In this document: piece by piece, positions 919-36,473 of the stretch
Numbering within the stretch: the first letter of the stretch is position 1
How the letters are laid out: each line of letters starts with the position of its first letter
DNA from: a virus
DNA length: 56,894 nucleotides
Reading direction: 5' to 3' (one strand)
Virus record (IMG/VR): IMGVR_UViG_3300025898_000001
Location: 1 to 56,894 of that record
Program-made: the position numbers and the translations under genes
Notes under the pieces: model-generated
What the model saw: only the letters and a program-made list of their open reading frames with translations
Told to the model about the DNA's origin: nothing
Databases searched by the model: none

Positions 919-2979
919 CTAGTAGGCCACGCCCAAGTCTTCGATGTAGAGCTCTCGGACACCCACCGGAGTGAATATCCCGGTGCCACTTATCCTCGTC
1001 GCCGAGACGCCGAAAACATGTGTTCCCGTCACCGTGCAGAGGAATGTCTGTCTGAGCAAGATACTGTTGCGTGAAGCTGACCCCGTCGAGGAGTACGTGT
1101 ACTGACTCTGGGCGATGTTGGCCGAGGCTGAAGTCGGGTTGGAGGCCGACTGAGAGTCTCGTATATTCAACTGTATGATGTCGTTGGCGACACTCAAGTT
1201 GCCCAGCAGACCGTCGAGAGTAGCTCTGTACCGCCGGCCGCTAACCAACGTGACTGTGTGGTAACCGAGCACCGTGTCGAAAGTCTCGGTGGTGGACGAC
1301 GTGGCGGTGCCAGAGGACGACGTCGCGTTCGGGGCGGCCGAGACGATGGTGCCCTGAGGCACCCAGTGAGACCCATCGTAGACCATGCTCCGACCGGTGT
1401 CGCTCTCGAATATCTCCATGCCCTGGAACGGAGTCGCCGGCCGAGTGGTGCTGGTGACGATCGTGGTGCCGCCCAAAGCGATGACGTTGCCGGCGGCGTC
1501 CTTCCAGTTAGGTCGACCCGACAACGCGTAGAGCACTCCACCACCGGCGGGTGTGGATGCGGGTGAGGTGGTGGCATTGGCCACCTCTATGACTCCCACA
1601 CCCCCCGAGCCGAGAGTGGCGACCGCGCCCACAAGCAGCGTGGTGTCGTGGTAGAAGACCTTAGTCGTAGCTCGGCCATACTTCACGTCGCGCGCCGCCG
1701 CGCCAGAGCCGATCTCGCTGTGGCCGTCGGCATACACCGCGTATCGGTGGGAAGACACGTCGCCGGCGACTTCACCCTCATAGACGACTGTCGCCGCGTC
1801 CTGGGCGATAGCCCTGAAAATCTGACCTCCGGCCTGGGTGCTGGTGACCTGCACGGACGGGTTGGCTGCGCCGGCGGCGACCACTACACTGTTGTTGACG
1901 GTCAGCGTGTTGCTCAGCGTCTTAGCCCCGGCGATAGTCTGACTCGTGGTCAGATCGACAAAGTTCTGAGTGGCCGAACCCGTGCCGCCGTTGGCCACAC
2001 TGACCGGTGTGGCGAGCGACAGTGTGTTGCCGCTCTTAGTGAGGCCGGTGCCCGCAGTGATCTCGCCTGCGCCGGAGAACTGGGTCCAGTTCTGCGCGGT
2101 GGTGCCGACGATCAGGTTGCCAGGAATGATCGGCAGAGTCCAGCCGGAGCCAGAGTTGGCGGTGCCGCCCTCAATGAAGACGAAGGCACCCGCCGCGTCG
2201 GTGTTCGTGTCGACGTCGGTCGCTCGAGTGAGGATGTATGGGTGGGTCGAGTCGCCCACCTGAGTCACCGTGTAGACGCCGTCGTTGGCGCCTGCCGCCT
2301 CATTCTTCACCAGCACGCGGTCGCTCACGCCCGGGGTAGCCCCGTCGATAGAGCCGAGCGCGCCGTTGGCGGTCGCGGTCAGCGTGGCGCCCACACCAGA
2401 CGCGCCGTTGGAGTAGGTATTTGCCGGCAAGGCTGTCGTAGTCGCACATCGGCAGGAGGCCTTGGGCGACAGACCGGACACTATAGCGTCTACATACTGC
2501 TTGGTCGCCGGCTGCAGGGCCGCGACCGGGTCGGCGGCCAGGGTGATAGCCCCGATCATAGTGCCGCCGGTCAGTGGCAGCATCAGATCTGCGTAGGCCT
2601 TGCGCACCAGCTGATTGGCGGTTGTGGGGTTGCTCGCCGGCCCCACGGGAATAGTGCCGAAGGTCTTGGTGCCATTGATCGTCTGGTTGGTGCTAAGATC
2701 GACGAAGTTCGTGGACAACGCCGACACCGGCAGCTGCGCTGTGGGCACCAGACCAGAGCCGTCCAGCGAGGCCACGCCATTGACCGCGCCTCGAGTGGTG
2801 AGGTCGAGAGCTCCAACGTCGGCTGAGTTCAGGGTGATGCTCGAGCCTGACTTGCCGTTGACCATCGTCGGGAGTCCCTGGGGACCCTGTAGACCGAGCG
2901 ACTGTATGGTGATCTGGGGCACCGTGCCCTGGTTGGTGACGGTGACGACCCGCTGCTGGTCGAGAACTACCGCGGTCAC
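919..2979 (-). CDS. Tail fibre / receptor-binding protein
   Basis: A 686-residue protein with typical phage tail-fibre composition (very rich in T, S, G, N, A, V). A short collagen-like LQGPQGLP segment near residue 30 is followed by repeats of fibre-family phrases: NFVDLSTNQTINGTKTF and later NFVDLTTSQTIAGAKTL, LPLTGGTMIGAI, and ATKQYVDA, which are hallmarks of trimeric fibre shafts. The C-terminal 150 residues form a distinct domain, probably the receptor-binding head. I place the start at GTG 2979, which overlaps the TGA of the upstream gene as GTGA (translational coupling); the longer open frame begins in shadow sequence. Confidence 0.88.
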   Translation of the reverse strand: MTAVVLDQQRVVTVTNQGTVPQITIQSLGLQGPQGLPTMVNGKSGSSITLNSADVGALDLTTRGAVNGVASLDGSGLVPTAQLPVSALSTNFVDLSTNQTINGTKTFGTIPVGPASNPTTANQLVRKAYADLMLPLTGGTMIGAITLAADPVAALQPATKQYVDAIVSGLSPKASCRCATTTALPANTYSNGASGVGATLTATANGALGSIDGATPGVSDRVLVKNEAAGANDGVYTVTQVGDSTHPYILTRATDVDTNTDAAGAFVFIEGGTANSGSGWTLPIIPGNLIVGTTAQNWTQFSGAGEITAGTGLTKSGNTLSLATPVSVANGGTGSATQNFVDLTTSQTIAGAKTLSNTLTVNNSVVVAAGAANPSVQVTSTQAGGQIFRAIAQDAATVVYEGEVAGDVSSHRYAVYADGHSEIGSGAAARDVKYGRATTKVFYHDTTLLVGAVATLGSGGVGVIEVANATTSPASTPAGGGVLYALSGRPNWKDAAGNVIALGGTTIVTSTTRPATPFQGMEIFESDTGRSMVYDGSHWVPQGTIVSAAPNATSSSGTATSSTTETFDTVLGYHTVTLVSGRRYRATLDGLLGNLSVANDIIQLNIRDSQSASNPTSASANIAQSQYTYSSTGSASRNSILLRQTFLCTVTGTHVFGVSATRISGTGIFTPVGVRELYIEDLGVAY

Positions 2980-3368
2980 GGTTGTGCCACCCGCCTGACC
3001 GTGATCTGGCCGCTCAGCATGTCCTGCGCCGAGCCGGTGCCGGGCTGATACCACAAAGTCCAGAAGACGTAGCCGCCTCGATTACCAAACAGCGTCTGGG
3101 TCGCGACGCCGGTGAGATTCAGCGTCAGCTTGCCATTGACCGCGTCGGTCACCGTCAGCGAGCCGTTCGGATTGCTCACGTCTGTGGTGAGAATCGAGAC
3201 GAGCTTGGTGCCGTCGATCGCCTCGGCGACGAACTCCAGCACGATGCCGGTGAGATTGATCGGATTAGGCGGCGTGGAGCTATCCTGCAGGGTGAAGGCG
3301 AGACTGCGCACAGCCCCTCGGTCGCAGGTGAACATCAGCTCATCAGCGACCACAGTCACAGTGCTCAT
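2976..3368 (-). CDS. Putative baseplate/fibre accessory protein (BppU-like)
   Basis: A 130-residue all-beta protein. Its plan of a polar N-terminal strand region, a DRGAVRSLAFTLQD strand, an I-V-L-E-F-V core and a C-terminal Y-V-F-W-T-L-W-Y-Q-P strand with a final GQITV resembles the N-terminal domain of baseplate upper proteins of Gram-positive phages. It sits between two tail fibre genes and overlaps the next one by GTGA, which fits a fibre connector. ATG 3368 follows a GGAGG site. Family assignment is tentative. Confidence 0.6.
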   Translation of the reverse strand: MSTVTVVADELMFTCDRGAVRSLAFTLQDSSTPPNPINLTGIVLEFVAEAIDGTKLVSILTTDVSNPNGSLTVTDAVNGKLTLNLTGVATQTLFGNRGGYVFWTLWYQPGTGSAQDMLSGQITVRRVAQP

Positions 3369-27727: not shown

Positions 27728-27756
27728 ATCATATCACCTCAGTGAGCCTCAGCCAA
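27728..27756 (-). promoter_or_regulatory. Internal promoter ahead of recombination genes
   Basis: Minus strand: TTGGCT (27751-27756), 17-nt spacer, TATGAT (27728-27733), nine bases, ATG (27718). It overlaps the end of the polymerase gene. Confidence 0.62.
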
Positions 27757-30273
27757 CTCCTGGATCTTAGCTAGGCCTGGGAAGTCGTAGACCTGCTCGG
27801 GCTCAAGCTCGATCGAGTCGCCCCAGTGTGTGCCCACCTTCAGATCTGCGACGATGGGCAGCGCCATCTTGAGACCGAACTTACGACGCATATTCTCCAT
27901 ATCCTCCATAGAGTCTTTGATGATAGGCAGCACCTCGCCGACCACATCTTCACGAATCTCGAAGTTGACCGCGTCGTGCACCAGACCGAGGCAGTAGGCC
28001 TTGTCGGCGAGATCACGTTCATGCAGCGTCTCATTGATCTTGATCATCGCCATAACCGCCATGTCGCTAGCAAGCCCCTGCACTGGCGAGTTGATCGCCT
28101 GTCGCTCGGCCTCCGCGCGGACCCCCTTCTCTGGCGAGTTGATATCGGGTAGATGCCGGATGCGACCGATGGCCGACTGCACCCGGCCGTGGATGTTGAC
28201 CAGTCGTCGCTGACGCTCGTGCCAGGCGAGTAGATCTGGGAACAACTCGAAGTAGGCTTTGCGATAGGCCCTCGCTTCAGACTCGCTGAATCTGACTCCG
28301 TAGTTGTTGAAGGCGGTCTCGATGAACTTCATCCAGCCCATGCCGTATAAGAAACCGAAGTTGACCGGCTTGCCGATCTTCTTGCGCAACTCCTTAGTGA
28401 TCTTGTGACGAGGCAGTCGGGTGACCGCCATCGTCGTCTCCATATGGATGTCTGCGCCCTGATTATACATTCGTATCATGGTGCGTTCGTGGGCGCAGAA
28501 GGCGGCGATTCTCAGCTCGATCTGACTGTAGTCGGCCTCGGCCCACACCCAGCCTGGTGTGGCCCCGATGATGCCGCGAATGAAGGGGTCTCTCGGCACT
28601 TGCTGGGCGTTGAAGCCTTTGATCTTGGAGGCCGAACCAGAGAACTTAGAGGCGTCCTCCTTGCCTGAGGCGAGTCGGCCGGTGACCGTGCCACCCAGTT
28701 TGAAGGTGGTGCGAATCTTGCTCTCTTCGTCGGCCAGCCTCTCGAAGGCTTCGAGAAAGGTGAGATCCTTCTGCATGCCGGCGCGTTCGAGCATCAGCTT
28801 CAGTACTGGGTGTGGGGACCTCTCCTCCCCCAACACTTTGAGCGCCTCGGCCGACATCGAGGGCATCCCCGGTGAGCCGTCGTCCTTCTCCTTGCCGCGA
28901 GCATACACCGGCAGCTGGAGCCACTCGAAGAGAAACCATCGGGCGAAGTTCGATGCATTGAAGTTGACCTCGAGCGGCTTGCCCTTCGAGTCTCTGGGCC
29001 AATCCTCAGAGTCTCTATCAGGCAGCCATTCGGCGATAGCGGCTTCGATGATGCCCAGGTCGGCCCGCTTCTGCGGCAACCGCTCAGCGAGTCGACCCTT
29101 GTCCACCCAGAGTCCGCGCTGCTCAGTCTCGATCAGGTCGCGATTCGCCGGCTTGTACTCTAGCTGCATGATGCGGGCGAGACGGGGTTGTTGCTTGAGT
29201 TCCTCCTTTACCTGCAGATAGATCAGGTAAGTGTAGTAGGTGTCGAGGAAGTTGTACTGCAGCACCTCATCGAGAGGCATGTCGAGCAGCGACCTTGTGT
29301 CGACGCCCCACGGCTCCACGCCGAGGCGCATCTGAGCTTGAGGCTTGAGTCCCTTGAGCACATTCTCGTCGAGAAGGTGGACGGCGAGCATGGTGTCGAA
29401 GGTGTTCCACATACCCCCCACACCGAATCGACGAAGCCACCTGGAGTCGAACTTGCCGTTATGGGCGACGCGCTTAGGCACCGCTGCGAGGCACGGCCCC
29501 AGATACTTCAGCACCGCTCGCCAGCGAGTCTTGAAGGGCGACTCAGGGTGATATAGGGGCAGCGCGAAGCCGCGCACCTGACCCTTGACGACGTAGGTGC
29601 CGGCGATCGAGATGATCTTTGCCTGGGGGTCGAATTCGCCCAGTGGCACGATATTGGTCTCGACGTCGAAGCTGAGTAGTTCGGCCGCTCGCAGATCAGA
29701 CTCTAGCTCTCTCACCCTCGCCGGCGAATCGACGATCAGAGGATTGATCGGAATGACGCGGTTGAGAGTGTCGCCCTTCACCATCGAGACGAACAGCTTC
29801 AGATCGGCTTCGTACCCCGGTCGGTTCTGAGGTCGAGCGAGCACAGCCGAGGGTGAGATCGTCGGCAGCACCTTGGCGTCATGCGCGTCGAGCGGCTTGC
29901 CTCGCCACTTCATGATGCCGCTATGGCCGGTGACCGAGAGTAGCGCCTCGTTGCCCATGGTGAGAATGAACTCGGGCTTGATCTCGGCGATCTCAGCCTC
30001 GAGATACTCTCGACACGCCTTGACGTCGCCATTGCTCGCGTTGGCCTCGAAGTTGCGGCACTTTAACGCGGAGGCCCAGTAAATCTTGGTGTGGATCAGA
30101 TCGAGTCCGGCGTTGCGTAGATCCTGCTGCAGCACGCTCTGGTATCGGTCCGAGTTAGGCATCTTGCCGACCACCATGACAGTGGCGCCCCTCGCACCGA
30201 CACCGGGTTCGCACACCAGATCGACGCCGCGGTGAAGCTTGCACTTAGTGCAGCTGTCGTTCAGCGTCACCAT
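27739..30273 (-). CDS. polA: DNA polymerase I fused to UDG-like domain
   Basis: An 844-residue protein. Residues 1-170 resemble a family-4 uracil-DNA glycosylase: CTKCKLH at the N terminus, VMVVGKMPNSD at motif 1, and LPTISPSAVLARP at motif 2. Both motifs are degenerate (G-E-A-P-G and H-P-S are expected), so this domain may bind but not excise. A 3'-5' exonuclease follows (LLSFDVETN, VAHNGKFDSRWL, YNFLDTYYTY). The polymerase has motif A EADYSQIELR, motif B KPVNFGFLYG and motif C VHDAVNFEI. There is no 5' nuclease domain. ATG 30273 follows GGAGTG. This is the replicative polymerase. Confidence 0.88.
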   Translation of the reverse strand: MVTLNDSCTKCKLHRGVDLVCEPGVGARGATVMVVGKMPNSDRYQSVLQQDLRNAGLDLIHTKIYWASALKCRNFEANASNGDVKACREYLEAEIAEIKPEFILTMGNEALLSVTGHSGIMKWRGKPLDAHDAKVLPTISPSAVLARPQNRPGYEADLKLFVSMVKGDTLNRVIPINPLIVDSPARVRELESDLRAAELLSFDVETNIVPLGEFDPQAKIISIAGTYVVKGQVRGFALPLYHPESPFKTRWRAVLKYLGPCLAAVPKRVAHNGKFDSRWLRRFGVGGMWNTFDTMLAVHLLDENVLKGLKPQAQMRLGVEPWGVDTRSLLDMPLDEVLQYNFLDTYYTYLIYLQVKEELKQQPRLARIMQLEYKPANRDLIETEQRGLWVDKGRLAERLPQKRADLGIIEAAIAEWLPDRDSEDWPRDSKGKPLEVNFNASNFARWFLFEWLQLPVYARGKEKDDGSPGMPSMSAEALKVLGEERSPHPVLKLMLERAGMQKDLTFLEAFERLADEESKIRTTFKLGGTVTGRLASGKEDASKFSGSASKIKGFNAQQVPRDPFIRGIIGATPGWVWAEADYSQIELRIAAFCAHERTMIRMYNQGADIHMETTMAVTRLPRHKITKELRKKIGKPVNFGFLYGMGWMKFIETAFNNYGVRFSESEARAYRKAYFELFPDLLAWHERQRRLVNIHGRVQSAIGRIRHLPDINSPEKGVRAEAERQAINSPVQGLASDMAVMAMIKINETLHERDLADKAYCLGLVHDAVNFEIREDVVGEVLPIIKDSMEDMENMRRKFGLKMALPIVADLKVGTHWGDSIELEPEQVYDFPGLAKIQELAEAH

Positions 30274-30677
30274 TCGGGTGTCACTCCACTGACGGTGTGG
30301 AACTCCATCTTGAAGTCGGTCGGCGTCAGCAGATACATGGGCACCATGCCCATCATCTCGGCGAGGGCCTCGCACATCGTGCTGACGCACTCAAGCTTGA
30401 AAGTGTAGTTGCCTCGACCATCCTCCTCAACGATCCAGCGATGGGCGAATGAAGCTTCCTCGCCGAAGTCGATCAGTGAGAACGGCTTTCGCATCGCCTG
30501 GATCAACTGGTGGATTGAGATGATGTTCTCGCTGTGCAGACCATACCACTGAGGCCAGGTCAGCGTGACTCGGAATCGAATCTCCGAGTCTTCGAGGAAC
30601 CAGTTGTCGGGCAGCCAATCCTCAGCGCTGAGCATATCAGGCGTGAAGCCAGTTTCGGGGGTCATGATCGTCGTCAT
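30267..30677 (-). CDS. Hypothetical protein
   Basis: A 136-residue protein starting MTTIMTPETGFTPDMLSAED, with a Trp/aromatic-rich N-terminal half (TLTWPQWYGLHSENIISIHQ) and Met-rich C-terminal part. ATG 30677 is chosen because it forms an ATGA overlap with the dCMP deaminase stop and also sits seven bases below a TAAAAT box; an upstream in-frame ATG overlaps that box. No family recognised. Confidence 0.65.
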   Translation of the reverse strand: MTTIMTPETGFTPDMLSAEDWLPDNWFLEDSEIRFRVTLTWPQWYGLHSENIISIHQLIQAMRKPFSLIDFGEEASFAHRWIVEEDGRGNYTFKLECVSTMCEALAEMMGMVPMYLLTPTDFKMEFHTVSGVTPEW

Positions 30678-31150
30678 GTCAGCCATTTTACCACCTCCAC
30701 ACCCCCCTTGTCAAGCAGATCCACACCCGCCATGTCTCGGTGGTCATCGCGAAAGACGACTCGTTCGATGCCGGCGCTGAGGATCAGCATGGAGCAGTTG
30801 GGGCATGGTGCAGTGGTGGTGAAGAGCTGACCACTCTCCACACGTACCCCGTATCGGGCCGCATAGGAGATGGCGTTGGCCTCGGCGTGGACCGAGATGG
30901 TGCAGGGTTTGGTCGCCGGGCAGTAGGCGGAGTGGGCGTTGTGTAGATGTGAGTCTTTGGCCGGGCACTTGCACTCGTGGTCACAATGGGTCATTCCCGC
31001 AGGGGCGCCATTGTAGCCGCTGACCAGCGGTCGGTATTCGGCCGTCGCGATGATGACGCCCACCTGTGCGCGTGAGCATGTGCTACGGAGCGCGTAGAGC
31101 GCCGCTGAATTGATCAGGATGTGGTCGCGTGAAGGTCGCTGCGACATCAT
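30674..31150 (-). CDS. dCMP deaminase
   Basis: A 158-residue zinc-dependent deoxycytidylate deaminase converting dCMP to dUMP. The catalytic site is HAEANAI and PCPNCS (H-A-E and P-C-x-x-C); a Cys/His-rich insert before it (HCDHECKC, HLHNAHSAYC) resembles the extra zinc site of the T4 enzyme. LVSGYNGAPAG is the family N-terminal motif. It overlaps the ThyA-fold gene upstream by 4 bp. Confidence 0.92.
   Translation of the reverse strand: MMSQRPSRDHILINSAALYALRSTCSRAQVGVIIATAEYRPLVSGYNGAPAGMTHCDHECKCPAKDSHLHNAHSAYCPATKPCTISVHAEANAISYAARYGVRVESGQLFTTTAPCPNCSMLILSAGIERVVFRDDHRDMAGVDLLDKGGVEVVKWLT
30685..30714 (-). promoter_or_regulatory. Internal leaderless promoter ahead of polymerase
   Basis: Minus strand: TTGACA (30709-30714), 18-nt spacer, TAAAAT (30685-30690), seven bases, ATG (30677). 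It lies within the 3' end of the deaminase gene and should boost polymerase expression. Confidence 0.75.
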
Positions 31151-32061
31151 GACATCATCGCTTCCATGAGCCGCTGGGACTCTTTGGTCTGCAGCTCAAC
31201 AACGTGGGTCTTCATGAACTCTCGGTCGCCGTCGAACACATGTAGTGAGCCGATGTTCATGGCGAGGGTGCCGAGGGTGAGTCTAGAACCTTTGGCTCCC
31301 TCGTTGCCCTCCATAAACCACCACCGGTCGGCGACCCACCACATGAGACGCATGGCGTGGTAGACGTCGTCGCGCATGTGGCGTAGATAGTCGCAGGACC
31401 GCATATGGTACGTGCAGTTCAGTCGACCTTGACGGATGCGGAACTGGTAGCCCAGCGAGCAGGGCACCCGCTGACCCTCCACCGAACCAGTGTCCTCCGG
31501 GAACCAGATGGGCAGATAGGCCTGACGCGTGGTCGGGTCGCGATCTAGGAGTTTCACCACGTCGAGCAGATCGCCAAGATGATACCGAACGCCGAACTGA
31601 GGTCCAAGATCGCAGTACTCGTTCGGGCCGTATTTGCCACGGATGCTCGACGAGCAGCTGGTAGGAGCGTGGCCCGGTCCAGCGTGCTTGGGCCAGAACC
31701 GCTCGGGGTAGGTGTGGGAGAACTGCCCGCTGGCGAGATGCTCGCTGTTGTCGTTCTTGCGGAACGGCCACCGCTCGTGGGAGGGTGGGGGGTTCAGCGC
31801 GACGCCAGACACTCGCTCCTCGAAGTGCTCGTCGGCCCAGGGCAAGTTCGGCTTGACCAGGTGGGCCATTGAGGTTACGCTCATCGGCACCCCAAGCTCA
31901 AAGCAGACGTCCTCGAGTTCCCAGGTCCGGCCGAGCCCCTCTCGGCCCTGTGTGGATTGGGATTGCCAGGTCAGGCTGTCGACCGGCTTGGCGTCTTCCA
32001 CCAGACGGTCTGCCAGTTCGTACATCAAGCCGTTGAAGCTTCGACTCTTGAGCGTGATCAT
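31147..32061 (-). CDS. ThyA-fold enzyme, probable dCMP hydroxymethylase
   Basis: A 304-residue thymidylate synthase superfamily protein. The nucleophile lies in RVPCSLGYQF, preceded by TTRQAYLPIWFPED, and the nucleotide-binding motif is MRSCDYLRHMRDDVYHAMRL. In thymidylate synthase that last motif is R-S-x-D-x(7)-N; here the Asn position (E. coli Asn177) is Asp. The same change (Asp179) defines T4 dCMP hydroxymethylase. With a deaminase, kinase and pyrophosphatase in the same operon this suggests synthesis of 5-hydroxymethyl-dCMP; a thymidylate-type reaction remains possible. Confidence 0.72.
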   Translation of the reverse strand: MITLKSRSFNGLMYELADRLVEDAKPVDSLTWQSQSTQGREGLGRTWELEDVCFELGVPMSVTSMAHLVKPNLPWADEHFEERVSGVALNPPPSHERWPFRKNDNSEHLASGQFSHTYPERFWPKHAGPGHAPTSCSSSIRGKYGPNEYCDLGPQFGVRYHLGDLLDVVKLLDRDPTTRQAYLPIWFPEDTGSVEGQRVPCSLGYQFRIRQGRLNCTYHMRSCDYLRHMRDDVYHAMRLMWWVADRWWFMEGNEGAKGSRLTLGTLAMNIGSLHVFDGDREFMKTHVVELQTKESQRLMEAMMS

Positions 32062-33092
32062 TCTCCGAAATCCTCCTCATCATCTTCCTCTATGTCCACC
32101 ACCACACCCTTCATTATATCGCCCATTCGGCCGAGCGGGAGTCCTAGCTTGGAGAGATCGAGATTTGACGCGTAGCAGTGGGGCAGCGGGTGATAGGCCT
32201 TGAAGAACTCTTTGCCCTGGGACCCGTCACGCAGAATCTTCGGTCCTTCGAACTGGAGAGCGTGGTTGTATCCGAACAACTCGGTGTGCCACCGCCGGCG
32301 GATGCGTCGATAGGTGTTGTAGTTCATCTGACCGTAGGTCATGCCGGCCTGGTCCTCCTTCCTGACCTTGCGCAGCCAGACTCGACTGATCTTGATCGCT
32401 GGCGCCTCCAGCAGCTGGAGTTCATCTTCCGACAGTCGAGACGTCGAGGCTAGCAGGACTCGACGACCGACCCGACGATGGTCAGAGTCTGGATGCATCA
32501 GTAGATAGGCGAGTGATTTGAAGGAGTGATACTGTATCGAGTCGATTTGCCACACGAACCCGATATCCTGTAAACTCTGCCTAGTGAGTTCGGCGACGTA
32601 CTTGCCGAGCACCTGAGCCACCGTCAGATCGAGCGCCGATAGGTAACCCATGTAGGAGGTCCGACTGTGCAGCGTGATGGTCGGAGTGGGTAGCGCCTTG
32701 TAGACCACCGCGAGCATGCACGACCCCCATCGTCGGCGTTCGCGGTTGGTCATGCCGTTGATAGAGCCGCCCTGGGATCGTACGATCTTAGTGCGCAATG
32801 TCGCCTGGCCCCGCCCTTTAGAACCGATGCGCACGCATTGCGCGAGCCACATTTTAACATCTTCGGGGTCGAGGTACTGCTTGATCATCATCGTCCATCG
32901 GGACGGGGTTAACCACAGCGACTTGAGATCGAACTCCCACTCGAGTGAGTCCGCCACGCCGATGACGTTGTGCTTTGAGACGTCGATCATCGACACGGTG
33001 TCTAACTGATCTCGAGGAGAGTAGATCAGATCTAGACACATGCGGTCGTGCAGTTCGGTGAGGGTGCTCGCGCTATAAGCGTGAGATCGCAA
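32058..33092 (-). CDS. Divergent ThyA-superfamily-like protein
   Basis: A 344-residue protein that overlaps the ThyA-fold gene by 4 bp. RRRWGSCMLAVVYKALP followed by TITLHSRTSYMGYLSALDL and FVWQIDSIQYHSFKSLAYLL parallels the Cys, R-S and final H-x-Y regions of thymidylate synthases, but the P-C and R-S-x-D signatures are not kept intact. It may be a second nucleotide-modifying enzyme or a non-catalytic partner. TTG 33092 follows GGAGG. The C terminus is an acidic tail. Assignment is tentative. Confidence 0.45.
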   Translation of the reverse strand: MRSHAYSASTLTELHDRMCLDLIYSPRDQLDTVSMIDVSKHNVIGVADSLEWEFDLKSLWLTPSRWTMMIKQYLDPEDVKMWLAQCVRIGSKGRGQATLRTKIVRSQGGSINGMTNRERRRWGSCMLAVVYKALPTPTITLHSRTSYMGYLSALDLTVAQVLGKYVAELTRQSLQDIGFVWQIDSIQYHSFKSLAYLLMHPDSDHRRVGRRVLLASTSRLSEDELQLLEAPAIKISRVWLRKVRKEDQAGMTYGQMNYNTYRRIRRRWHTELFGYNHALQFEGPKILRDGSQGKEFFKAYHPLPHCYASNLDLSKLGLPLGRMGDIMKGVVVDIEEDDEEDFGE

Positions 33093-33246
33093 TGTAGGCC
33101 TCCACGATGAGTTGGACGATGACGACTATGAAGTAGACGCCGATGCTGACCACGAGACAAAGGCCGAGACCGATGACTATGGCGCCGGTGATCTTAACCC
33201 ACATCGGATGCGGTCGCGTCGGTGTATCCGTTGTTTTGTCTTCCAC
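33073..33246 (-). CDS. Small membrane protein
   Basis: A 57-residue protein starting at GTG 33246 (after GGAGAA), nested between the pyrophosphatase and ThyA-like genes and overlapping both. A polar N terminus (TDTPTRPHPMW) is followed by one long hydrophobic span, ITGAIVIGLGLCLVVSIGVY and a second IVVIVQLIVEAY, possibly a hairpin. The longer open frame is shadow of the pyrophosphatase gene. Function unknown. Confidence 0.55.
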   Translation of the reverse strand: MEDKTTDTPTRPHPMWVKITGAIVIGLGLCLVVSIGVYFIVVIVQLIVEAYIAISRL

Positions 33247-33709
33247 GATTCTTCTCCCACGCTCGGAAGTAGGCGTCGAACAACTGGTCGGCGCTGATGC
33301 CCGCGGTGATGCACATCTCCACGAAGAAATGCAGCGCGTCGGCCATCTCCTCAGTGAATTTGGCCTCGTCGGTGCCATTCCACTTCTGCTTCCACGGCTT
33401 CCAGCGCAACTCCTGCATGGCCTCGCTGAGTTCACGCACGGTGAAACCGAAGAGCTCGTGCAGTCTGGCTTGCACCGTGGCGAAGTTGATCTCGCCGTAG
33501 TCGCTCTCCGGTATCGGGAAGGACGGCTCACCCGTCTCGATCTCGAAGTACTTCCGCATCAGCTCTCGCTGGCCGGCGAAGATAGTGCGCAGCGCGTCGA
33601 ACTGAGAGATGTACCCGGTGTTCATGTAGATCGCACCAACCTCGTACCACACGCCCTGATTGGTGATGCGGGGCTCCTGGTACGGCACACGGTCAGTACT
33701 TGACGTCAC
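33194..33709 (-). CDS. All-alpha NTP pyrophosphatase (dUTPase/dCTPase-like)
   Basis: A 171-residue protein of the dimeric dUTPase/MazG superfamily. Helix RELSEAMQELRWKPWK supplies E-x-x-x-(M/E) ligands and FTEEMADALHFFVEM supplies E-E-x-x-D; the C-terminal DQLFDAYFRAWEKNRGRQNN is the typical K-N-x-x-R-Q segment. Such enzymes remove dUTP or, in T4 (gp56), dCTP and dUTP. GTG 33709 after AAGGA is the best start; the open frame extends into the kinase gene. Its position beside the hydroxymethylase candidate suggests clearing of dCTP or dUTP. Confidence 0.78.
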   Translation of the reverse strand: MTSSTDRVPYQEPRITNQGVWYEVGAIYMNTGYISQFDALRTIFAGQRELMRKYFEIETGEPSFPIPESDYGEINFATVQARLHELFGFTVRELSEAMQELRWKPWKQKWNGTDEAKFTEEMADALHFFVEMCITAGISADQLFDAYFRAWEKNRGRQNNGYTDATASDVG

Positions 33710-34247
33710 GAGACTCAGTCCTTGTGTTGAGAGCGAAGACGATGTTCTGGTGGATGCGACCGTACATGTGCTCACGGTCGGGGTGCCGGTAGTCCCACAG
33801 CTTGGCGTCGGTACCCCAGTTGCCATAGGCGGCGACGTAGGCGTTGTAGATCTTGTGCATGTACGGAACGACGACCTCGTTATTCGGGTCATGGGCCGTG
33901 TTCAGATAGACCGAGCTCCACGGAGGCAAACAGAAGATCACAACCGGTTTGATCTGACGAAACACTTGAAGCGCGGGAATCAGCCACTCGGGATCCCAGA
34001 AGTCTGCATCGGGCTCTCTGGGCATCACCGACGAGTAGATCGGCTCTGAGATCAGACGATGCCGATCAAAGATGGCCGGCTTGAATCCGCCGGCGAGGTT
34101 GTCGTTGACCCAGTCACGAAGATTAGTCATCGGTCGGGTGTCGGAGTCGACGACCTTCGCCGCCAACTCCAGGTGTGGAAAGTCGCCCATCAGTCGCTTG
34201 ATTAGCGTGGTCTTGCCGGCCCCATCCGGACCTTCGACCACGATCAT
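33693..34247 (-). CDS. Deoxynucleoside monophosphate kinase-like
   Basis: A 184-residue P-loop kinase: Walker A VEGPDGAGKTTLIKRL at the N terminus, a D-R-H motif in AIFDRHRLISEPIYSSV equivalent to the D-R-x of thymidylate kinases, VVIFCLPPW strand, and a C-terminal lid-like region. It should phosphorylate a dNMP to dNDP. In a hydroxymethylation pathway it would play the part of T4 gp1. ATG 34247 overlaps the upstream stop (ATGA). Confidence 0.82.
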   Translation of the reverse strand: MIVVEGPDGAGKTTLIKRLMGDFPHLELAAKVVDSDTRPMTNLRDWVNDNLAGGFKPAIFDRHRLISEPIYSSVMPREPDADFWDPEWLIPALQVFRQIKPVVIFCLPPWSSVYLNTAHDPNNEVVVPYMHKIYNAYVAAYGNWGTDAKLWDYRHPDREHMYGRIHQNIVFALNTRTESRDVKY

Positions 34248-34599: not shown

Positions 34600-36126
34600 T
34601 CAACCGCGGAGTAGCGACTTCGGAGACTTCATGATCGCCTTAGCCACATCGCCATCCGCTTGCAGGGTGTGGTAGATCACTTCATCCACAGTATCCTCAG
34701 CCAACAGGTAGACGAACCGTGTGCCTCGCGCGTCCTTATTCAGGGCGATACGATCCTCTGCCTGAGTGAAGTCGACATAGCTCAGCGTCAGAGAGAACCA
34801 TATGAAGGTGCCCGCGGTGGATAGGTCGATGCCCAACGATCCCGCGGCGGGCTGCATGACAAACACCGCACAGCCGTCGGTGTGAGCTCTAAATGCCTTG
34901 ATATTAAAGTCGCGATCCTGTCTACTGACCTTGCCATAAAGGGGATAACATTTGACTTTTAACTTACGACAGATCGACTCGATGGCCTGTATGTCGTGCA
35001 CGAACTGGGCGCCGACAACAACCTTCTCGCCCGCCTCGATCAGGTCCTCAAGCATGTCTCGAAACACCGCCAACTTCTCGGTGCCCACACGATAGAGCCG
35101 GCCGTCAGGATGCTCTGGTGTGGGGTTGGTGCGGGCCACCCCCGAAGTGATCTGCCGGAGTCTCACCAGTTGGACTATCGGCAGCGACGCCTCGGTGACC
35201 TCACCGGTCTCGATTTGATGAATCATCTCATTAGCCATGTCGTCGTAGGCCTTGCCCGACTTGACTAGCGGCACTCTAATGATCTCGGGGGGCAGTCTCG
35301 CCGGCAGATCAAAGCACTCAGCTCGTGTGATGGCGAAGGCGTCTCGGTGGATCAGCTTGTGGAGTTCACGTGTGTTCTGGTTGCCGAGCCATTTCTCATA
35401 ACCCTGCAGCTTGACCCAGCGACCAAAGTGAGCCTTGAACTCACGGAAGGTCATGTCGAATCGATCGGGATTCATGAACTCCCACTGACTCCACACGTCG
35501 AACACTCGCTTGCGCTTAGTGACGACTGTGCCGGTCATGATTACTCGGTAGTCAGCGATCTTACCCAACTTGTGGATCATCTTCGACTTCTTAGCTGTCG
35601 CGGACTTGATGCGGTGACTCTCGTCGAGGGCGACGACGTGAGGACCCCAGGCCTCTAACGACTTATATACGTCGAAGCGACCGCCTCGGTTCTTGGATCG
35701 GGTCTTGATGGTGAGAGGTTTCTGATCCTCGTCTCGCTCCACAGTCCTAGTCACCACCTGCCCCGGTGTGGACAGCGCGTCGTAGTTGACGACGACGATC
35801 TGCAGTTTGCCATCGCGACGCCGAGGGATGCGCGGGTAGTTCTTGCGCACCACTGAGTCCCACACGATGATCTGATACTCGAAGGGGCAGTGGGTCTCAA
35901 ACTCATCCTTCCACACCCCCATCACCGATACCGGGCAGAACACTAGAACTCTTTCGACCTTGCCCAGTTGGTATAGAATCGACACATAGTCGATAAGGGT
36001 CTTGGTCTTGCCGGTTCTAGGCTCCATGAGAAGAGCGCCGCCGAAGTCGGTGCTGAGCAGCTTCTTGACCGCAGAGACCTGGTGAGCGTAGGGCTTGGTG
36101 CGCCAGATGTATGTGTTTCTTGTCAT
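34600..36126 (-). CDS. SNF2-type superfamily 2 helicase
   Basis: A 508-residue SF2 helicase. Q-like AHQVSAVKKLL, Walker A EPRTGKTKT, DEAD-equivalent VVALDESHRIK, motif III VIMTGTVV, then in the second RecA lobe VVVGAQFVHDI, GSLGIDLSTAGTFIWFSL and FTQAEDRIAL (motif VI). The lineage is the SNF2/phage helicase group that remodels forks or recombination intermediates. The start forms an ATGA overlap with the preceding gene; the extended frame upstream is shadow. Confidence 0.9.
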   Translation of the reverse strand: MTRNTYIWRTKPYAHQVSAVKKLLSTDFGGALLMEPRTGKTKTLIDYVSILYQLGKVERVLVFCPVSVMGVWKDEFETHCPFEYQIIVWDSVVRKNYPRIPRRRDGKLQIVVVNYDALSTPGQVVTRTVERDEDQKPLTIKTRSKNRGGRFDVYKSLEAWGPHVVALDESHRIKSATAKKSKMIHKLGKIADYRVIMTGTVVTKRKRVFDVWSQWEFMNPDRFDMTFREFKAHFGRWVKLQGYEKWLGNQNTRELHKLIHRDAFAITRAECFDLPARLPPEIIRVPLVKSGKAYDDMANEMIHQIETGEVTEASLPIVQLVRLRQITSGVARTNPTPEHPDGRLYRVGTEKLAVFRDMLEDLIEAGEKVVVGAQFVHDIQAIESICRKLKVKCYPLYGKVSRQDRDFNIKAFRAHTDGCAVFVMQPAAGSLGIDLSTAGTFIWFSLTLSYVDFTQAEDRIALNKDARGTRFVYLLAEDTVDEVIYHTLQADGDVAKAIMKSPKSLLRG

Positions 36127-36473
36127 GACTCCCCTCGCTCGGTTCCGTAGTCGTGCATGAAAAGCGAATCTATCACGACCTCTGGGCCGGACTCTCTTCT
36201 CCAGGACTTGAGCTCGTCGCGTCCGATCAGATTCTTCGGCACCTGAGTGCCGGCGGTAGGCTTGCCGCACTTACGGTGAACAAACCACCGAAAGCGGGGG
36301 CCGAGGGCTATCAACTTGCCGCTGTGTCGACCGTTGGTCTCGTCGGGACAGTCGCATCGGGTCTTCATCAGATGGAACAGACCACAGACTCTTAGCGACT
36401 CGACTGAGTCGAGCTTCTCCCTAAGTTTGGTGATTGTCGCCTCGTCGCCCTCGATCAGCAGTATTTGCGTCAT
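36123..36473 (-). CDS. Hypothetical Cys-containing protein
   Basis: A 116-residue protein starting MTQILLIEGDEATITKLREK (helical), then CGLFHLMKTRCDCPDETNGR and RFRWFVHRKCGKP, which together offer four cysteines and histidines for a zinc site. First gene of the replication block, read from a leaderless promoter. No family recognised. Confidence 0.65.
   Translation of the reverse strand: MTQILLIEGDEATITKLREKLDSVESLRVCGLFHLMKTRCDCPDETNGRHSGKLIALGPRFRWFVHRKCGKPTAGTQVPKNLIGRDELKSWRRESGPEVVIDSLFMHDYGTERGES

Follow-up and report, generated by a model that had tools for sequence, protein, structure and literature searches.

The virus record IMGVR_UViG_3300025898_000001, analysed here as a window of 56,894 bases with 61% G+C, encodes siphophage-type tail genes, a terminase, a portal and head proteins, and carries nearly all of its genes on the minus strand. 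Our subject is an operon for nucleotide metabolism in its replication block, which spans 24-36 kb (Table 1). A preliminary description of this DNA had named a deoxycytidine monophosphate (dCMP) deaminase, a ThyA-fold protein, a nucleoside triphosphate (NTP) pyrophosphatase and a P-loop kinase, and Pfam and PHROG matches confirmed that all four are present. It had also portrayed them as adjacent and translationally coupled. Gene overlaps are visible in the DNA, where we read ATGA overlaps at 31147-31150 and 32058-32061 as well as an overlap between the kinase and pyrophosphatase genes; contiguity, however, did not hold, because two genes intervene between the ThyA-fold protein (hereafter protein A) and the pyrophosphatase. 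One of these is a short membrane open reading frame (ORF), and the other encodes a second ThyA-fold protein of the same operon (protein B), which had been overlooked.

Table 1. Genes of the operon and its flanks in the 56,894-base window.
Feature	Position	Strand	Evidence
dCMP deaminase	30674..31150	minus	PF00383, 61 bits; phrog_174, E 4e-43; HAE and PCPNC zinc motifs; extra Cys/His cluster
Protein A, predicted dCMP-type ThyA-superfamily enzyme	31147..32061	minus	PF00303, 30.5 bits (cut-off 24.3); phrog_160, E 5e-30
Protein B, second ThyA-fold protein (by predicted structure), 344 amino acids	32058..33092	minus	phrog_13667, E 1e-97; likely TTG start, GGAGG upstream
Short ORF, one predicted membrane helix (judged by eye)	33073..33246 (alternative start 33204)	minus	translation and starts
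All-alpha NTP pyrophosphatase, T4 gp56 (dCTPase/dUTPase) type	33194..33709 (stop at 33194, start inferred)	minus	PF08761, 36.5 bits
P-loop nucleotide kinase (GPDGAGKTT), thymidylate-kinase-like	33693..34247	minus	phrog_761 'thymidylate kinase', E 2e-11
Family-A DNA polymerase with N-terminal uracil-DNA-glycosylase-like domain	27739..30273	minus	PF00476, 227 bits; PF03167, 48 bits
SNF2-type helicase, upstream of the kinase	34600..36270	minus	PF00176, PF00271

The preliminary description had likened the set to that with which phage T4 replaces cytosine. This likeness holds for the deaminase, which also matches PF14437 just below the cut-off, and for the pyrophosphatase, which shares PF08761, phrog_173, phrog_12184 and phrog_18650 with T4 gp56 and in addition matches PF01503 (PRA-PH) below the cut-off. 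For the kinase, no family match names T4 gp1: the family searches, in which gp1 itself was not compared, gave thymidylate-kinase-type and general P-loop matches only. Moreover, the gene set resembles the hydroxymethyluracil (hmU) set of phage SPO1 too, and gene content alone therefore does not single out T4.

Protein A is recognisable as a ThyA-superfamily enzyme by several measures. Its AlphaFold2 model has a predicted local distance difference test score (pLDDT) of 79, and all of its top Foldseek matches belong to the ThyA family, with the highest target-normalised template modelling (TM) score to PDB entry 9iqu (0.77) and a score of 0.72 to 9iqc. In a single-sequence search the nearest PDB sequence was the CMP hydroxymethylase MilA (E 4e-7), and membership of phrog_160 is common to A, T4 gp42 and RB69 ORF048c. 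Residue tables were drawn up for 129 distinct relatives with data. The ThyA core is kept, with the catalytic Cys201, Arg179 (Arg126 of ThyA), Arg221 (Arg166), Tyr118 (Tyr94) and His274 (His207) invariant in 128-129 relatives; Asp224, which corresponds to the pterin-binding D169 of E. coli, is kept in 125/129.

To this core A adds the residues expected of an enzyme that acts on dCMP. We aligned a profile of A made from 60 relatives to T4 gp42 with hhalign, which placed Asp232 of A on Asp179 and Cys201 on Cys148 of gp42; a multiple alignment with E. coli ThyA, T4 gp42, SPO1 gp29 and RB69 ORF048c gave the same register. Asp232 is also the third residue of a predicted helix, in agreement with the position of E. 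coli Asn177. The earlier proposal that A carries Asp in place of the substrate-selecting Asn thus stands, with Asp232 equivalent to Asn177 of E. coli and Asp179 of T4. Asp occupies position 177 in all 129 relatives and is therefore not there by chance. Position 147, the residue after the Cys (Ser202 in A), is Thr in 103 and Ser in 26 of the relatives, and never His. At positions 177 and 147, T4 gp42 and the RB69 5-hydroxy-dCMP synthase have Asp and Thr, E. coli ThyA has Asn and His, and SPO1 has Asn at both. According to PMC8670742, these are the two positions that best separate the ThyA homologues of cytosine-modified contigs from those of unmodified ones, with Asp177 on the modified side; that paper also reports that PF00303 co-occurs with dCMP deaminase, MafB19-like deaminase and PRA-PH domains on contigs experimentally shown to be cytosine-modified. 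Our window carries the same co-occurrence, with PRA-PH below the cut-off only. Because Asp177, Ser/Thr147, the gp56-type pyrophosphatase and this domain co-occurrence all coincide, dCMP is a well-supported candidate for the substrate of A, and the same features lend good support to the forecast that some cytosine in the virion DNA would be modified.

The group that A would add at C5 is another matter. T4 gp42 makes 5-hydroxymethyl-dCMP by means of a water molecule that Asp145, located three positions ahead of the Cys, activates, and its D145N variant makes none; an Asp or Glu at this position together with Ser/Thr-x-Tyr has been proposed as the hydroxymethylase signature (PMC6400193). We found that A has Arg198 three residues before the Cys in 129/129 relatives (SPO1 gp29 and MilA have Asp), and that the position of T4 Ser94, two before the active-site Tyr, is His116 in 125/128, so that the motif reads His-Thr-Tyr. 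With both elements of the signature replaced, the claim that 5-hydroxymethyl-dC is made here as in T4 was not borne out. A ThyA-superfamily enzyme is also the source of 5-hydroxy-dCMP in RB69-type phages (PMC13390438), and RB69 ORF048c, which also has Asp at 177, is near-identical to the crystallised enzyme AfhB (9iqc, 9iqu). In addition, a thymidylate synthase that carries N229D (N177D) becomes a dCMP methylase (work cited in PMC8670742). Since the RB69 5-hydroxy-dCMP synthase and this synthase-derived methylase share Asp177, the residue is a predictor of the substrate of a ThyA-fold enzyme and not of its product. The product of A may carry a hydroxymethyl, methyl, hydroxy or new group.

Protein B matches no Pfam family, and its sole PHROG match, phrog_13667, has no known function. 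Its AlphaFold2 model, built from 26 relatives, has a pLDDT of 92.7 and a predicted TM-score (pTM) of 0.89. When this model was compared with the PDB by Foldseek, all 32 matches at E<=1e-3 belonged to the ThyA superfamily, led by 9iqu, which is AfhB with dCMP (E 7.6e-8, target TM 0.54), and followed by MilA and T4 gp42; Foldseek against viral predicted structures gave the same picture. On the strength of this model we assign B, and with it the members of phrog_13667, annotated only as hypothetical proteins, to the ThyA fold. Five residues (Cys125, Arg144, Tyr147, Asp155 and Gln187) are invariant in 85/85 relatives with data. Cys125 immediately precedes a strand; Arg144 sits three residues from the end of the strand after it, and Asp155 lies three positions into the helix that comes next. 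A and B share this order: a Cys before a strand, an Arg, an Asp, and then a His/Gln and aromatic/His pair that ends a later strand. B lacks the pterin-binding Asp169, which is replaced by Tyr147, and the His207/Tyr209 pair, which is replaced by Gln187/His189. B thus looks, in its model, able to hold a cytosine nucleotide but unable to bind folate as ThyA enzymes usually do.

The distribution of B ties it closely to A. Among 81 loci encoding B, A lies just downstream of B in 80, and the exception ends at a contig end. The other neighbours at these loci are the kinase (77), the polymerase (77), the deaminase (76), the SNF2 helicase (76) and the pyrophosphatase (68); carriers of phrog_13667 keep the order kinase-pyrophosphatase-B-A-(deaminase)-polymerase, and the gene orders agree in phages Zuko, Muddy, Shrew and GTE2. 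B occurs in no fewer than 85 records of sequenced phages, for the most part Gordonia phages, together with Mycobacterium (e.g. Muddy), Streptomyces, Microbacterium and Curtobacterium phages. On a FastTree tree of A, the A proteins paired with B are strongly clustered (3 changes for the absence of B, compared with 33.9 in shuffles). Together, these results show that B is near-absolutely dependent on A; they fit a stable A/B unit and argue strongly against a chance neighbourhood. We read B as an obligate partner of A, most likely because the two form a hetero-oligomer or because B is a second-step enzyme.

At loci that lack B, the genes lying upstream of A were compared with the B and ThyA profiles. 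A group of calcineurin-like phosphoesterases and another that by eye resembled IMP dehydrogenase/GMP reductase were rejected, as neither matched these profiles; many large phages that lack B have a calcineurin-like phosphoesterase gene ahead of A (L017-L047). Two small groups are distant relatives of B, one clear (c5) and one weak (c2), and both are linked to phrog_34294. The phrog_34294 proteins upstream of A lie at L024:7069-7962, L088:5178-6011 and L087:2909-3679, and two of them are annotated as 'pyrimidine hmase synthase'.

Enzymes that might decorate a modified cytosine were sought by named families. In the window we found no carbamoyltransferase and no member of two glycosyltransferase families (PF00535 and PF13692), and the earlier statement that no glycosyltransferase is visible holds for these two. 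A search of the window for ThyX was negative as well. Across 49 B-carrying genomes, carbamoyltransferase was found in none and each glycosyltransferase family in one, Streptomyces phage Zuko. As a general decorating partner, carbamoyltransferase was rejected: it exceeded the cut-off in 2/46 A-carrying genomes without B and in 0/49 with B. A Tet/JBP search of the window is uninformative, as its control itself matched nothing. Decorating enzymes outside the named families searched are possible. In Zuko (MN204493), the glycosyltransferase family 2 and 4 matches lie at 76267-76452 and 2926-3246, and no other B-carrying genome tested has them; the modification in this phage could be glycosylated.

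Given the gene content, the folds of A and B, the Asp and Ser/Thr substrate residues, the loss of the T4 hydroxymethylation signature and the dependence of B on A computed here, the operon is probably a nucleotide-level cytosine modification module, of which we infer the dCMP specificity of A, any activity of B, an A/B complex and incorporation into DNA. We think it fairly likely that the operon, through its pair of ThyA-fold proteins A and B, supplies a deoxycytidine nucleotide already modified at C5 before DNA is synthesised, whichever group that may be. The gp56-type pyrophosphatase would break dCTP (and dUTP), the triphosphates of deoxycytidine and deoxyuridine, to the monophosphate, and A, as a dCMP-specific ThyA-superfamily enzyme, would add a group at C5 of dCMP. 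B, with its own Cys-Arg-Asp pyrimidine site, would act as A's hetero-oligomer half or carry out a second step. The kinase would start the re-phosphorylation of modified dCMP to modified dCTP, which the phage polymerase would incorporate, and the deaminase would turn surplus dCMP into deoxyuridine monophosphate (dUMP) for thymidylate. A bolder proposal joins A and B, as two obligate components, in a single ThyA-fold enzyme of a kind not seen before, which would add a C5 group other than hydroxymethyl, methyl or hydroxy. Such a group could arise, for example, if the invariant Arg/His pair guided a different nucleophile to trap the exocyclic methylene intermediate. We hold this proposal to be unlikely.

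Several observations weigh against the proposed A/B module. With PDB structures B reaches TM-scores of no more than 0.54, which is modest. Neither profile-profile alignment (hhalign) nor hmmsearch connected B to ThyA, T4 gp42, SPO1 gp29 or RB69, and a PDB profile search was likewise negative; the ThyA assignment therefore rests on the predicted structure. Residues ~110-160 of A are poorly modelled, A is distant from every characterised enzyme, and it is often found without B, so that not every A depends on B. A plain supply of deoxythymidine monophosphate (dTMP) would also be compatible with the presence of a dCMP deaminase and a dUTPase. Finally, we found in the open-licence literature no nucleoside or DNA analysis of the present phage, GTE2, Muddy or any carrier of B.

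The operon may also be explained in other ways. That A is a dCMP hydroxymethylase like T4 gp42, and that the virion contains 5-hydroxymethyl-dC undecorated or nearly so, is doubtful yet a serious possibility. It would account for Asp177 and Ser/Thr147, which are as in gp42, and is favoured by the gp56-type pyrophosphatase, the retention of Asp224 and the closeness of A to MilA in the PDB; however, the essential Asp145 of T4 has become Arg198 in every relative and Ser94 has become His116, and the searched decorating enzymes occur in none (carbamoyltransferase) or one (each glycosyltransferase family) of the 49 genomes, though T4-type 5-hydroxymethyl-dC is usually decorated. We regard as improbable that A is instead a dCMP methylase, which would yield 5-methyl-dC DNA as in phage Xp12: where A has its Arg ahead of the Cys, thymidylate synthase has Leu, and the Trp80/Trp83 positions and C-terminal tail of the synthase are unaligned in A, even though a methylase would suit the N177D conversion, the missing water-activating Asp and the failure to find the decorating enzymes searched for.

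An enzyme like AfhB, the RB69-type 5-hydroxy-dCMP synthase, would make A a flavin-dependent dCMP hydroxylase. The highest target-normalised TM-scores of A are to the two AfhB structures, one of which, 9iqu, also heads the PDB fold matches of B, and A and RB69 ORF048c have Phe at 209 and phrog_160 in common. Yet AfhB has Asn169 and a Glu three before the Cys where A has Asp and Arg, residues that may or may not define the RB69-type synthase family; moreover, 5-hydroxy-dC is normally glycosylated, and the sugar-synthesis neighbours of RB69 were not seen here. We judge this as improbable as the methylase. Least likely of all, in our estimation very much so, is an ordinary thymidylate supply with no modified base, in which deaminase and dUTPase would yield dUMP, A would make dTMP and the kinase dTDP, the diphosphate. 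The gene set fits such a route, and in phage annotations A appears as thymidylate synthase and the kinase as thymidylate kinase, but every relative of A with data has Asp177 and Ser/Thr147, and cytosine-modified contigs carry the same domains (PMC8670742). In addition, ThyX lies beside A in the A-carrying phage MW202455, and A is therefore not needed there as a thymidylate synthase.

Other features of the locus bear less directly on A and B. Active family-4 uracil-DNA glycosylases (UDGs) carry GEAPGxxE and HPS motifs. The UDG-like domain of the polymerase (27739-30273) reads GKMPNSDR and SPSAVL; because these motifs differ, the domain may serve in binding rather than excision. A 139-amino-acid ORF without a family match lies at 30267-30686, between the deaminase and the polymerase. 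Small ORFs near the slot of the short membrane ORF (33073-33246) are also found in GTE2 and MW202455, and in MW202455 a gene annotated as a superinfection immunity protein adjoins the pyrophosphatase.

The analysis gives phrog_13667 a name, as a predicted ThyA-fold protein. If our proposal is correct, at least 85 sequenced phage records carry modified cytosine, apparently unreported so far, with effects on restriction, CRISPR sensitivity, sequencing and editing of B-carrying phages. A two-protein system and an Arg-for-Asp change would be added to the ThyA superfamily, in which the mapping of products (methyl, hydroxymethyl, hydroxy) is still under way. Should the bolder proposal of a new C5 group hold, a cytosine base not yet described would occur across a large group of phages, those of actinobacteria and others from soil.

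Among known systems, the 5-hydroxymethyl-dC pathway of T4 (gp42, gp56, cd, gp1) shares with this operon Asp177, Thr/Ser147, a gp56-family pyrophosphatase, a dCMP deaminase and a nucleotide kinase. Here, however, Arg and His replace Asp145 and Ser94, B is an extra component, the kinase is thymidylate-kinase-like, the tested glycosyltransferase families are absent, and a family-A polymerase with a UDG-like domain stands in contrast to the T4 polymerase gp43. AfhB of RB69-type phages (Mosigvirus) resembles A in Asp177, Thr/Ser at 147 (Thr in AfhB), Phe209 and a thymidylate-kinase-like gene nearby, whereas it differs in the Glu three before the Cys, Asn169 and surroundings of arabinose-synthesis genes, with no B seen. 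The dUMP hydroxymethylase gp29 of SPO1 was the closest to A of the single sequences tried by hhalign (95.7%), has Gln at 127 as A does and is accompanied by similar kinds of accessory genes, but it has Asn177 and Asn147 (the dUMP type), Asp three before the Cys, and phrog_5131 instead of phrog_160. Finally, the ThyA homologues found by MetaGPA share with A the domain co-occurrence and the two diagnostic positions, and differ in that their carbamoyltransferase partner is absent from 49/49 B-carrying genomes here, while B is not reported in the passages of that work consulted (PMC8670742).

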